Positions 57,345-62,922 of a stretch of DNA of 64,000 bases are shown here, in pieces. Below the pieces are notes generated by a model. It was not told the origin of the DNA. It ran no database searches and worked only from the letters and a program-made list of their open reading frames with translations. The stretch is from positions 1-64,000 of the forward strand of contig CALMPF010000057.1 of the NCBI GenBank assembly GCA_937871505.1, given 5' to 3'. A program made the translations under genes and the position numbers. Numbering within the stretch: the first letter of the stretch is position 1; each line of letters opens with the position of its first letter. This DNA comes from an uncultured Planctomycetia bacterium. GTDB lineage: Bacteria; Planctomycetota; Phycisphaerae; Phycisphaerales; SM1A02.

Positions 57345-57389
57345 TCGGGGAGCGGGAGCGACGCTCTCGGTGGAATGTCTGGATTGGCG

Positions 57390-57510
57390 GACGGGGATCG
57401 CGGAACTGGGATCGCGGAACTGGGATCGCGGGACTGGGATCGCGGGACTGGGATCGCGGGACTGGGATCGTTGGACTGGGATCGCGGGACTGGGATCGTC
57501 GGACTGGGAG
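57390..57510. repeat. 14-bp tandem repeat, about eight copies
   Basis: Units of TGGGATCGCGGGAC with small variants (CGCGGAAC, CGTTGGAC, CGTCGGAC) follow one another with no spacer. The 14-bp length does not keep a reading frame. It starts about 50 bp after the glycosyltransferase stop, within the 464-bp gap to the RRM gene (57345-57808), in which I see no gene. It is not a CRISPR array because there are no unique spacers. Confidence 0.9.
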
Positions 57511-57808
57511 CGGCAGGACGGGTCCGCGCGTCGATGAGCCCCGCGCGAAGCGCCGGGCCCGCGTCCATCGGCCTCGATCGCCCGACCTCGCGCAGGGGGG
57601 TATTGGCGCCGGAGGCCGGGAGGTATACTCGTTTCCGGTCGCTCCCGGTGCTCGTTCATGCGTCGTGCGCGTGCTTCCCGGGAGCGATGGCCGCTCGCCG
57701 AACTCTCGGCGCGGCGGCTGACTCGAGGCCTCGCGCGGTCGCCGATGCAAGCGCTCCGTCAAGGGACGTTCGGCGCCGGGCGAGCAGACCCGTGAACGGG
57801 ATCTCCCC

Positions 57809-58381
57809 ATGAATCGGCTCTATGTCGGAAACATCCGCTACACGGCGGACGAGGCGTCGTTGCGCGCGCTCTTCGAGGCGTACGGGCCGGTTCAGGAGGT
57901 CTTCATCGGCATCGACCGCGAGACCGGCCGGTCGCGCGGCTTCGCGTTCGTCACGATGAGAGATGCGGAGGGAGCGCAGGCGGCGATCGCGGCGCTGGAC
58001 GGCAAGGAGGTTGACGGCCGCAACATCGTCGTCAACGCGGCCCAGCCCCGCGGGAGCGGAGGAGGCAGCGGCGGTCCGCCGGGCGAACGGCGAGGCGGGC
58101 CAGGCGGCGAGCGGCCTTCCGGCCCGCGCGGATCCGGCGGGGCTCCTCGTGGCCGCGTCGGCGAAGGCCGTGACGGACCGGTCTTTCGTCAGCCGCCATA
58201 CACCGGGCCGCCGCCGGAGAGCGGAGCCGGGCGCTCGTCGCGCGGCGGAAAGCCCGGGCGCGATCGCGAGTGGGAACGACCGCGCGAACAAGACCGCGAA
58301 CGGGCGCGGGAGAAGGAGCGCGAACAGGCGCGGGAGTGGGATCGCGGGCGCAATCGCCCCGATCGCGACGAAGAGTGGTAG
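57809..58381 (+). CDS. RRM-type RNA-binding protein
   Basis: 190 residues. One RNA recognition motif at 1-80 with both RNP motifs: LYVGNI (RNP2) and RSRGFAFVTM (RNP1), plus the usual ETGRSRGF and EVDGRNIVVNAAQPR. The rest is disordered: Gly/Pro/Arg runs then a highly charged Arg/Glu/Asp repeat tail (DREWERPREQDRERAREKE). Such proteins in bacteria bind single-stranded RNA, often in cold response, and the tail may promote condensation. The gene is convergent with dps, with 2 bp between stops. Confidence 0.93.
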   Translation: MNRLYVGNIRYTADEASLRALFEAYGPVQEVFIGIDRETGRSRGFAFVTMRDAEGAQAAIAALDGKEVDGRNIVVNAAQPRGSGGGSGGPPGERRGGPGGERPSGPRGSGGAPRGRVGEGRDGPVFRQPPYTGPPPESGAGRSSRGGKPGRDREWERPREQDRERAREKEREQAREWDRGRNRPDRDEEW

Positions 58382-58383
58382 CG

Positions 58384-59067
58384 CTAGATCCCGTTCGCGT
58401 GCTCCGCGACGAACCACGCCTGCTTCTCGTTGGTTCTGATCACCTGTCCGACGACGAGGTCGTTGGTGCCGTCGTCGCCGCGGTCCGCAGCGCTTCCGGC
58501 GACGCGGCGAGCGCCGCGGATGACGATCTCATGGGCATCGAGCAGGCGCTGGAGCTGTGCCGGAGCGGACTCGCGCCCCAGCGGCGGGCGCGGGATCGAC
58601 GTCGCCTCGGCGACGTCGTGCGGCATCGCGACGCTGACGCCGCCGAGCATGGCGATCCGTTCGGCGACGAGATCGACGATCTCGTCCTGCTGGCCGTAGT
58701 GCCTGTCGAAGAGCTCGTGAAGCTCCGTGAAGCTCATGCCCGAGACCTGCCAGTGGCACTTCCGGTAGAGATCGCGCAGCGCCATCGTGTCCGCGAGGAC
58801 CGAGTTGAGATCGGCGATCGATCCGGCGCACGTCGACGCGGGAAGCGCGATGGCGCGGGGGACGACGGCGCCGAAGGGCTGGATCTCGCCGGCGGAGCCG
58901 CCGCGCCGAAGCGCGAGGCCGCCAGAGCCCTGCGCTCGGCGCCCGGTCGCGGAGCCCTTGCCGGTCCGCGCGCCCGCGCCGGTGCCCGCTGCGCCGTTTC
59001 GTGAGGTGCCCTTCCGCGGCGGCGCCTTCCGCGCAGTCGATGAGCGTGTCGTGTTGCGTCGTGCCAT
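58384..59067 (-). CDS. dps: Dps-family ferritin-like DNA-protection protein
   Basis: 227 residues from the ATG at 59067. The ferritin-like four-helix domain starts near 80 with LADTMALRDLYRKCHWQVSG and FTELHELFDRHYGQQDEI, then VDLVAERIAMLGGVSVAMP; the His, Asp and Glu of the inter-subunit ferroxidase site are in place. About 55 Arg/Lys/Ser/Gly residues precede it, a likely DNA-binding tail. Dps stores iron oxidised by hydrogen peroxide and coats DNA in stress. It is convergent with the RRM gene and divergent from the gene at 59142. Confidence 0.93.
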   Translation of the reverse strand: MARRNTTRSSTARKAPPRKGTSRNGAAGTGAGARTGKGSATGRRAQGSGGLALRRGGSAGEIQPFGAVVPRAIALPASTCAGSIADLNSVLADTMALRDLYRKCHWQVSGMSFTELHELFDRHYGQQDEIVDLVAERIAMLGGVSVAMPHDVAEATSIPRPPLGRESAPAQLQRLLDAHEIVIRGARRVAGSAADRGDDGTNDLVVGQVIRTNEKQAWFVAEHANGI

Positions 59068-59141
59068 GAGGGCGGACTTTACGCGTCGCACCGTCACCGG
59101 GGCGCCGCAGCGCCGGAGCGCCGCGACTACGATGCGCTCCG

Positions 59142-59876
59142 ATGGCCCCCCAGAGCACCTCCCAGAGCGCCTCATCGACTCCGGGCGCCGCTGCGCCGCA
59201 TCTGTACGACGACGACGGTGACCGTCTGCTTCAGGCGGACGATCGAGCAGATCGCATCATCCTCCTGCCTGCGGGCGACCCGCGCAAGGCGACCTTCGAT
59301 CGCGATCGGATCAGGATCCAGTGGGGGCAGCATCTCCTCGCCGACCTGCTCGCGCGCCGCTACCGCACGCTCGTCTGCGGCGTGAACGCCGCCGACAACG
59401 CGCGGGGAGTGATCGCCCAGCTCGCGGAGCTGCTTCCGACCAGCCAGTGGAACGCGAAGTCGGTCACCGCGCACGCGGAGACCTTCGCTCGCTCGCTCGC
59501 CGGCGACGACCTCCTCGTGCTCAAGTACGACTTCGACGCGCTCGAGGTCCTCGCGCTGCTTCGGCCGCCGGGCCGCGACCACTTCACGCTCGAGGATCTC
59601 GCCCGCGGCTTCCGCAAGGTCGCCCAGATGGTCGAAGGTCGCCGCGATCGGCTGCCGGTCGCCTCGGTGAGCTTCCTTGGCGCGAAGTCGAACCGTCTCG
59701 TCGGCCACGCCGGCGGCGAGCCGACCTTGGAGAGCGTCGCCCGGACGATGCACGAGGCGGGCTTCCGAGGCGATCTCTACCCGCCGCTCTCGATGTGGCA
59801 GGTGGCGCCCACGGGCGTCTTCGCCAGCTACCCCTTCCCGCGCGGCCTCGAGGAGATGCGCCAGGGCGGCTTCTGA
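59142..59876 (+). CDS. conserved-looking protein of unknown function
   Basis: 244 residues with a normal folded composition: RIILLPAGDPRKATFDRDRI, LLARRYRTLVCGVNAADNAR, AKSVTAHAETFARSLAGDDL, LVLKYDFDALEVLALLRPPG and LPVASVSFLGAKSNRLVGHA. No signal, no membrane helix. It alternates strands and helices and could be a Rossmann-like domain. I do not recognise the family. It is divergent from dps with 74 bp between, so it might respond to the same stress signals; that is only positional. Confidence 0.75.
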   Translation: MAPQSTSQSASSTPGAAAPHLYDDDGDRLLQADDRADRIILLPAGDPRKATFDRDRIRIQWGQHLLADLLARRYRTLVCGVNAADNARGVIAQLAELLPTSQWNAKSVTAHAETFARSLAGDDLLVLKYDFDALEVLALLRPPGRDHFTLEDLARGFRKVAQMVEGRRDRLPVASVSFLGAKSNRLVGHAGGEPTLESVARTMHEAGFRGDLYPPLSMWQVAPTGVFASYPFPRGLEEMRQGGF

Positions 59877-60168
59877 CGGAGGCCGGGGCGATCGGCGACC
59901 GCGATCGGTCGCGCGCCCGCCGCGATCGACGGCGGCGGAGATCCGACCGCGCGCGCTCACTCGGGTTCGGCGGCCGGTGGACTTCGAGGAACTCCCGCGG
60001 CGTATCCTCCCGGCCGTCGCGCGTGTTCCGGCTGGGGGCCTCGGGTGACCCTTCGGATCGCGGGCGCTGACGTTCATCCGCGGGCACTCCCGCCGGGCCG
60101 CGAGGGTCCGGTGGCGGGCGGAGGGCCGGCGGTCCGTGTCAGTTCCTCGAAGAGTCGCCTCCTCCACG

Positions 60169-61884
60169 ATGCCCTTCCTCGAAGTCAAGACGCCCCAGGG
60201 TCTCAAGCGATTCGATCTCTCGGAGTCCGCCGTCACCGTCGGTCGGCATCCCGAGAACACGCTTCACCCGGACGACGACCTGCTGTCTCGCCGCCACTGC
60301 GTCGTCGAGGCGTACGGCGACGGCTTCCGGGTGCGCGATCTCGGCTCGCGGAACGGAACGAAGGTCAACAGCCTCCGCGTGACGGAGGAACTGCTCTTCA
60401 ACGGCGACGTGATCGTCGCCGGCCAGACGGAGATGAACTTCGTCGATCCGGAGCAGCGCACGGTCGGTCGGCGGCGGGACACCCCCGACTACGCCGAGGC
60501 GGCGCTCGTCCAGTCCCGGGCGGCGGTGCAGTCTCCGACGATCGATGTCGATACGTTCGAGCCGCTCGAGAACGTGCAGACGAGCTACGAGAAGCGTCTC
60601 CGCGACGTCATCGACTCCTCGCCCGACCGCACCTTCGAGGAAGCGGACATCGCGCTGGTCGACAACCGCGGGGTCACCGTCCACCAGGCGACGGCCCAGG
60701 GGCTCTCCGACGGCAGCGGCGATGACGTGGGAGAGTCGATCCGGGCCTTCCGGCTGCTGCTGCTCGCGGCGTTCCGCGCGCGGGCGACCGACCTGCACCT
60801 CGAGCCGCGGACGGACCGCGCCGTGATCCGGATGCGCGTCGACGGCTTCATGATCAGCGCCGTCGAGCTTTCGACGCCGATCTTCAAGAGGATCGTCGGG
60901 ATGGTGAAGATCCTCTGCCAGATCGACACCACGCAGAAGAACGCCGTCCAGGACGGGCATTTCTCCGTCTCGGTGAAGGGGCGCCGCGTCGACTACCGCG
61001 TCAGCCTCACCCCGGCGGTGCACGGCCAGAAGATGGTCGTGCGCGTGCTTGATTCGTCCAACGCGCCCAGCCGCCTCCACGAACTCGGTCTGCTGCCGTG
61101 GATGTACGACAAGCTCCGCTCGATCGCGACCAAGGATGCGGGCATGCTGCTCGCCTGCGGGCCGACCGGCAGCGGCAAGACCACCACGCTCTACTCCTGC
61201 CTGCGCGAGATCGATGTCGAGCAGCGCAACGCGATCACCATCGAGGATCCGGTCGAGTACTTCCTCGAGGGCTGCACCCAGATTCCCATCGACCACAAGA
61301 TCGGCAACACATTCGGGACGATCCTCCGCTCGGTGCTCCGGCAGGATCCCGACGTGATCTTCGTCGGCGAGATCCGGGACATCGAGACCGCGACGGTCGC
61401 GATGCAGGCGGCGATGACCGGTCATCTCGTCTACTCGACGGTGCACGCGAAGGACTCCATCGGCGCGATCTTCAGGCTGCTCGATCTGGGCGTCGAGGCG
61501 TATCTGGTCGCCAACGCGCTGAATCTCATCCTCGCGCAGCGCCTCGTGCGGCTGATCTGCGAGACGTGCCGCAAGCCGGTCCGCCCGACCCCGGCGCAGA
61601 ACATGCGGATGGGGAAGGTCCTCGACGGAGTGCCGCGGATCTTCGTTCCGGTCGGGTGCAAGCACTGCCTCGGCACCGGTTTCCACGGCCGCCGGGCGCT
61701 CTTCGAGATGCTCGAGTTCAGCGACGCGATGCGCGACATCGTGCTCAAGACGCCGACGATCGCTGCGATCCGCGAGGTGTGCCACTCGGGGCTCTTCACC
61801 TCGCTGGCGACCTACGGCTACACCCTGGTGGCCCAGGGAATCACCAGCATCGAGGAAGTCGACCGGGTGGCGACGTCGGAGTGA
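60169..61884 (+). CDS. FHA domain fused to a GspE/PilB-type secretion ATPase
   Basis: 571 residues. Residues 1-90 form an FHA domain, which binds phosphothreonine: VTVGRHPEN, DLLSRRHCVVE and DLGSRNGTKVN hold the conserved Gly-Arg, Ser-His and Asn residues. The rest is a type II secretion/type IV pilus ATPase: ARATDLHLEPRTDRAVIRM, Walker A ACGPTGSGKTTTL near 330, ITIEDPVEYF (Asp box), DPDVIFVGEIRDIETA (Walker B, about 393-408), MTGHLVYSTVHAKD (His box) and a tetra-Cys zinc site (CETC near 464, CKHC near 497). The usual GspE N-terminal domains are replaced by the FHA. No other secretion or pilus gene is nearby. Confidence 0.93.
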   Translation: MPFLEVKTPQGLKRFDLSESAVTVGRHPENTLHPDDDLLSRRHCVVEAYGDGFRVRDLGSRNGTKVNSLRVTEELLFNGDVIVAGQTEMNFVDPEQRTVGRRRDTPDYAEAALVQSRAAVQSPTIDVDTFEPLENVQTSYEKRLRDVIDSSPDRTFEEADIALVDNRGVTVHQATAQGLSDGSGDDVGESIRAFRLLLLAAFRARATDLHLEPRTDRAVIRMRVDGFMISAVELSTPIFKRIVGMVKILCQIDTTQKNAVQDGHFSVSVKGRRVDYRVSLTPAVHGQKMVVRVLDSSNAPSRLHELGLLPWMYDKLRSIATKDAGMLLACGPTGSGKTTTLYSCLREIDVEQRNAITIEDPVEYFLEGCTQIPIDHKIGNTFGTILRSVLRQDPDVIFVGEIRDIETATVAMQAAMTGHLVYSTVHAKDSIGAIFRLLDLGVEAYLVANALNLILAQRLVRLICETCRKPVRPTPAQNMRMGKVLDGVPRIFVPVGCKHCLGTGFHGRRALFEMLEFSDAMRDIVLKTPTIAAIREVCHSGLFTSLATYGYTLVAQGITSIEEVDRVATSE

Positions 61885-62265: not shown

Positions 62266-62922
62266 TCAGCGCGCGCTCAGCGCCGCGTGATGGCGCTTTT
62301 CGACGGCAGGCCAGTTGACGACGTTCCACCACGCCGCGACGTAGTCGGGCCTCCGGTTCTGATAGTGGAGGTAGTAGGCGTGCTCCCAGACATCCAGGCC
62401 GAGGATCGGGGTCCCCGGGCAGTCGACGACGCCCTTCATCAGCGGGTTGTCCTGGTTGGGAGTCGAGCAGACGCAGAGCGTCGCGTCGGGCTTGACGCAG
62501 AGCCACGCCCAGCCCGAGCCGAAGCGCGACGCGGCCGCCGCGGCGAAGGTCTCCTTGAACTTCTCGATCCCCCCGAGGTCGCGCTCGATCGCCGCGGCGA
62601 GCTCGCCGCCCGGTGCGCCGCCGCCGCCGCCGTTGGCGGAGGAGTGGTTCGGCGCCATGATCTCCCAGAAGAGCGTGTGGTTGTAGTGACCGCCGCCGTT
62701 GTTCCGCACCGCGGTGCGGACGGCCTCGGGAACCGAGGCGATCCCGACGCAGATCGCCTCGATCGACTTGTCGGCCCACTCCGGATGCGCTTCGAGCGCC
62801 TTGTTCAGGTTGTTGACGTATGCCGCGTGGTGCTTCGTCCGGTGGATGTTCATCGTCCTGGCATCGATGAAGGGCTCCAGGGCGTTCTCGGGATACGGCA
62901 GCTCGGGAAGCGTGAAGGGCAT
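62266..62922 (-). CDS. sodA: iron/manganese superoxide dismutase
   Basis: 218 residues. Converts superoxide to oxygen and peroxide. The four metal ligands are present: His in [19 protein letters not shown], His in [13 protein letters not shown], and Asp and His in [29 protein letters not shown] and WWNVVNW are conserved. Metal choice (Fe or Mn) cannot be fixed by eye. A Gly-rich loop ([17 protein letters not shown]) is somewhat longer than usual. AGGAA lies nine bases before the ATG. No signal peptide, so cytoplasmic. Confidence 0.96.

Follow-up and report, generated by a model that had tools for sequence, protein, structure and literature searches.

Organization of the FHA-GspE locus

The window is the whole stretch of DNA analyzed here, 64,000 nucleotides of a contig from an uncultured bacterium of the class Phycisphaerae (Planctomycetota). 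The initial annotation had read the open reading frame at 60169-61884 as an FHA domain joined to a GspE-type ATPase, and Pfam matches confirm both parts: FHA (PF00498) at residues 22-83 with E 3.5e-15, and T2SSE (PF00437) at residues 192-566 with E 6e-102. Yop-YscD_cpl also matches the protein, and no Pfam match to MshEN or T2SSE_N was found at E <= 0.1. The bounds of the reading frame were checked and are as first given, with ATG at 60169 and the stop at 61884; an alternative upstream start, GTG at 60136, is less likely because M1 is aligned across 33 of 33 orthologs. The parts of the gene are as follows.

60169-61884, + strand: FHA-GspE fusion coding sequence, 571 amino acids plus stop; full-length orthologs are 59-76% identical
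60169-60453, + strand: FHA domain, residues 1-95, with pocket residues R26, S40, R41, and N62, and also G25, H43, and G63
60454-60579, + strand: predicted disordered linker, residues ~96-137, AF2 pLDDT 41-55 across most of its length
60538-60552, + strand: T-I-D-V-D island, T124-D128, candidate phosphothreonine ligand of the FHA domain, T in 39 of 42 sequences
60580-60738, + strand: small conserved lead-in to N2, residues 138-190, a helix plus a "D-x-R-G...H-x-A" hairpin
60736-61872, + strand: GspE/PilB motor core, N2 plus C-terminal ATPase domain, residues 190-568 (PF00437)
61159-61182, + strand: Walker A, GPTGSGKT, residues 331-338; G331-G334, G336, and K337 invariant in 33 orthologs
61558-61668, + strand: tetracysteine (GspE/PilB zinc) motif, C464, C467, C497, and C500, invariant in 33 orthologs

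The AlphaFold model has a mean pLDDT of 86 and consists of an FHA sandwich (residues 1-95, AF2 pLDDT about 90), a disordered linker, an ordered lead-in (residues 138-172), and a complete motor. The flanks of the gene in the window encode a glycosyltransferase, an RRM protein, a ferritin-like/Dps protein, SodA, and ThiE, and no pilus or secretion genes were found there. A tandem array with the 14-bp unit GGATCGCGGGACTG lies at 57367-57526 between the glycosyltransferase and RRM genes. An RRM RNA-binding protein is encoded upstream of the fusion (57809-58381), and seven other loci of the family also have an RRM gene nearby. The ferritin-like (Dps-type) protein at 58384-59175 and the Fe/Mn superoxide dismutase at 62266-62922 flank the region and possibly mark an oxidative-stress neighborhood.

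Motor class and FHA domain

The motor belongs to the GspE/PilB/PilT superfamily, with Walker A, acidic box, Walker B, and His box invariant in 33 sequences, and within it to the GspE/PilB subfamily, with a tetracysteine domain in the C-terminal half whose four cysteines are all invariant. Scores against the NCBIfam models are 414.9 bits for GspE (TIGR02533, cut-off 630.25) and 381.3 bits for PilB (TIGR02538, cut-off 675.65), below the equivalog level for type II secretion and for type IVa pili, respectively; because both are far under the cut-offs, the protein is placed as a relative of GspE and PilB and a canonical member of neither. The TadA family model (TIGR03819) gives only 45.6 bits against a cut-off of 373.15, compared with about 400 bits for the GspE and PilB models, so the motor is not of the TadA/CpaF type and does not belong with class III CpaF. 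In sequence, the motor is nearest to the solved structures of GspE, PilB, and PilF, and the FHA part to those of GarA, OdhI, and DgcB. The best Foldseek match of the model is PilF (5oiu), with a TM-score of 0.94 by target length. For the FHA domain alone, VIA-align ranks GarA first (Z 17.3, rmsd 1.5 over 93 residues), GarA/OdhI being the closest FHA structures with DgcB just behind (Z 15.9).

The FHA domain was said initially to stand in place of the N-terminal docking domains of GspE and PilB. This holds for N1/MshEN: the EpsE/GspE chains in VIA-align begin only at model residue 138, corresponding to chain residue ~100, so the GspL-binding N1 has no counterpart in those alignments. A helix at about residues 138-150 can still be superposed on the beginning of GspE N2. 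The protein is described, from its sequence and predicted structure, as a ring-forming GspE/PilB-type ATPase with an FHA domain in place of the N1/MshEN docking domain.

The key residues of the FHA domain, claimed to be intact, are all present (R26, S40, R41, H43, N62, and G63). Loss of these residues in orthologs had been named as grounds for giving up the idea of a phosphothreonine reader; G25, R26, S40, R41, H43, N62, and G63 are instead invariant in an alignment of 33 diverse members, and the pocket residues are also invariant across 42 sequences from the window's family and its near kin. The pocket arginine, serine, arginine/lysine, and asparagine that characterize phosphothreonine readers correspond to R26, S40, R41, and N62, and their spacing of 14, 15, and 36 residues is that of R61, S75, R76, and N97 in DgcB. 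By these positions the pocket is canonical.

Distribution and ancestry

A match at E <= 1e-105 is held by 112 of the 397 genomes of the class, and full-length orthologs are present in most genomes of the window's family that were searched. Elsewhere in the phylum a few genomes have a match, and the named records with the fusion are from Phycisphaerales/Phycisphaerae and other Planctomycetota. Confinement of the fusion to this contig, which would have cast doubt on it, is therefore refuted by its spread over the class and by rare members outside. Among the 80 best matches listed, those outside the phylum have the FHA domain alone or the motor alone, which only suggests that the fusion is absent outside Planctomycetota. 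Besides PilT/TadA-like ATPases, the window's genome encodes five more of GspE/PilB type, all of them at most about 43% identical to the fusion protein.

A maximum-likelihood tree was built on 43 motor domains. All FHA-bearing motors share a common ancestry, forming one clade with support 99/97 that includes those of two genomes outside the class (G498 and G657). The motor of genome G705 is nested in the clade and bears GYF_2 instead of FHA, which counts against the explanation favored below. Taken together, the single clade and the GYF_2 domain in G705 make one origin of the fusion, with at least one later exchange of the N-terminal domain, most likely. Membrane-anchored GspE-like ATPases from other Planctomycetota (L225, L228-L230, L232, and L233) form another clade in the tree.

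Gene neighbors and platform genes

The initial annotation had called for a survey of the fusions and their gene neighbors. The fusion is wide in Phycisphaerae, and no universal neighbor was found across 40 class loci, each sampled over up to 20 kb; nor was a conserved partner gene found in these and 51 named loci. GspF/PilC was not found within about 10 kb in the same 40 class and 51 named loci, sets that overlap and include some short contigs. In three near-complete genomes (G004, G005, and G017), a different ATPase is encoded within 1.1 kb of every GspF match, no unpaired GspF was found, and GspF is either absent from the contig of the fusion gene or 268 kb distant. As GspF is always paired with other ATPases in these genomes, the motor has no dedicated platform and its gene is an orphan. 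The statement that no motor partner is nearby stands for the window and nearly the whole clade and fails in family f8 (L119-L121), where a PilT gene is immediately 5' of the fusion gene on the same strand. In the membrane-anchored group named above, the GspE-like ATPase gene directly follows PilT, and this is not a standard type IV pilus cluster.

Several candidate partners were rejected. A 107-amino acid gene beside FHA-GspE in 10 genomes is near-universal in the order, also where the fusion is missing, and is not a specific partner. The protein (L091:11273-11593, with homologs in L085-L099 and a copy in the window's genome at G000:C45:60558-60857) is basic, has no Pfam match, and occurs once in almost every genome of the order and in 164 of the 397 genomes of the class, often next to FHA-GspE; it is probably a core gene. 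One subclade has a PilM/PilN-O-like cluster some 5-8 kb upstream of the fusion gene, with 23S and 5S rRNA genes in between; this cluster is probably incidental. Also considered as platform was an orphan GspF of about 400 amino acids, which occurs in genomes without FHA-GspE and is missing from some that have it.

Kinase genes

Planctomycetota have many Hanks-type kinases, few of whose substrates are known. The window's genome has 38 kinase-domain matches. In L167, from a Phycisphaeraceae MAG, a Ser/Thr kinase gene (Pkinase E 1.6e-54) on the same strand begins 6 bp past the stop of FHA-GspE, and the two form an operon-like pair. Outside the class, FHA-GspE of G657 is directly followed by a kinase gene in the same orientation and has an FHA protein on its other side, and G498 has three kinase genes, one encoding an FHA-kinase, and an FHA protein within 16 kb. 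Related motors without FHA in G559 and G639 have a kinase ORF alongside. The genomes of the kinase-linked loci have from 85 to at least 138 kinase matches each, so each single case of a kinase neighbor is weak. Across the 40 class loci there are two kinase ORFs in 780 kb, fewer than the approximately seven expected from the density in the window's genome (38 per 4.2 Mb), and a general claim of linkage was dropped. Kinase linkage to the fusion gene is thus suggestive, and not general in the class.

In one member of the FHA-GspE clade, at L224:9256-11430, GYF_2 takes the place of FHA, and the motor gene is near an FHA-kinase, two double-FHA proteins, and a GAP1 protein, with a weak DO-GTPase2 match, under its Pfam cut-off, in the surroundings. 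At L226:9470-14541 (f89), a short FHA-less GspE-like ATPase is divergent from a Ser/Thr kinase-TPR gene, and an FHA protein is nearby.

A conserved threonine in the linker

In an initial scan, 24 of 63 FHA-GspE linkers contained T-[LIVM]-[DE]-x-[DE], compared with 2.1 in shuffled linkers (maximum 7 of 500), and nearly all carriers were from the window's family. A second set comprised 42 sequences from this family and its near kin. At column 124, 39 of the 42 have T and one has S; D fills column 126 in 38 of 39 and column 128 in 37 of 40, and most have I, V, L, or M at column 127. Of the 42 linkers, 37 contain the pattern T-hydrophobic-[DE]-hydrophobic, compared with 1.4 after shuffling (maximum 6 of 1000), a control that leaves shared ancestry in place; the longer pattern with serine for threonine occurs once. 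In the seven columns ahead of the motif the top residue reaches only 12-38%, so the island, with the consensus T-[LIV]-D-hydrophobic-D, lies inside an otherwise unalignable stretch. Because the flanks have diverged while the island has been kept, selection on the island is argued for despite shared ancestry.

In the window the island threonine is T124, about 29 residues past the FHA domain, with a hydrophobic residue at +3. This fits pT-x-x-V/I/L, the type of ligand bound by GarA, OdhI, and DgcB: GarA and OdhI read phosphothreonine in their own tails, and in DgcB the bound threonine is its own T14, followed by V17 at +3 (PMC6733907). A conserved threonine, a suitable +3 residue, and a flexible linker occur together only in the window's family; the motif was not found in other families of the FHA clade, and the linker in L056 has no threonine at all. 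A self-ligand mechanism is therefore possible in only part of the clade. The motif is disordered in phosphate-free AlphaFold models, including a run with a family-specific alignment, which is uninformative because the model carries no phosphate.

Proposed mechanism and alternatives

Both c-di-GMP and docking proteins are known regulators of type IV filament motors. The reading favored here, with a probability of about 0.5, is a kinase-gated accessory pilus or secretion motor whose FHA domain would read a kinase-phosphorylated threonine, T124 being the likely ligand in the window's family. We infer that a Hanks-type Ser/Thr kinase phosphorylates a threonine and that the FHA domain binds it. The likeliest ligand in the window's family would be the linker residue T124 of the protein itself. 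Either the FHA domain of the same subunit or that of an adjoining one in the hexamer would bind it, and phosphorylation of T124 would switch or arrange the motor, as in GarA, OdhI, and DgcB. The ATPase would probably be an accessory motor on GspF/PilC platforms owned by the cell's other pilus or type II systems, a role proposed for lack of a platform gene dedicated to it; no tie to one particular pilus was found. Control by Ser/Thr kinases, proposed in the initial annotation, is, at the level of sequence, well motivated by the kinase matches, the L167 pair, the G498 and G657 loci, and the linker motif. The assignment of T124 as self-ligand in the window's family is tentative. It is rather unlikely that the protein is a fully self-contained phosphothreonine switch, in which each subunit's FHA domain would read its own or a neighboring linker and kinases would gate a shared motor on the platforms of other systems.

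It is possible, if somewhat doubtful, that the motor is recruited in trans, through its FHA domain, to a phosphorylated partner such as a kinase, PilM, a platform protein, or another membrane protein, the linker motif then being a docking motif or a kinase recognition site. The FHA domain is kept where the linker motif is missing, kinases and FHA proteins adjoin the gene in G498, G657, and L167, and the GYF_2 domain in G705 and the membrane segments of related motors point to the N-terminus as an exchangeable anchoring module; however, the T-x-D-x-D island fits the FHA ligand pattern close to the domain, and no conserved partner gene was found at the loci surveyed. Some FHA-like domains of secretion systems have been proposed as phospho-independent scaffolds, and the Yop-YscD_cpl match would agree with an FHA domain that only aids assembly or stability; invariance of all phosphothreonine-contacting positions over a large divergence is unexpected for a mere scaffold and makes this improbable. 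That the ATPase works off pilus and secretion platforms and powers an unrelated process would suit the lack of a linked GspF at the loci examined and of an unpaired one in the three near-complete genomes, but is very improbable given that no motor motif varies, the tetracysteine domain included, and that f8 members adjoin PilT.

Relation to known systems

An FHA domain on a filament motor is already known for Tad pili, where class III CpaF/TadA is an FHA-IDR-motor ATPase (PMC12019362). Class III CpaF likewise has an N-terminal FHA domain, then a disordered region and a motor of the secretion superfamily, while the fusion described here has a GspE/PilB-type motor with a tetracysteine domain, is encoded by an orphan gene, and is found in Phycisphaerae, class III CpaF being mostly betaproteobacterial. 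No description of an FHA-GspE/PilB fusion was found in the open-licence literature searched. GspE of type II secretion and PilB/PilF of the type IV pilus share N2 plus the ATPase core, Walker A, the acidic box, the His box, and the tetracysteine motif, but the fusion lacks N1/MshEN, scores under the NCBIfam cut-offs, and has no platform gene alongside. The GarA/OdhI and DgcB switches have the nearest FHA structures, and the known ones read phosphothreonine in their own tails with a hydrophobic +3 residue (PMC6733907); the candidate ligand here would differ in being C-terminal to the FHA domain, in a linker to a motor ATPase. The membrane-anchored GspE-like ATPases have a related motor and share the PilT pairing with f8, but have N-terminal membrane segments in place of FHA and form a separate clade.

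The FHA domain has been joined to motors of this superfamily at least twice, in class III CpaF and in the Phycisphaerae clade, and the motor N-terminus is an exchangeable module that can be FHA, GYF_2, or membrane helices. If the favored reading is true, a built-in phosphothreonine reader would link the Hanks-type kinases of Planctomycetota to a concrete mechanical output.
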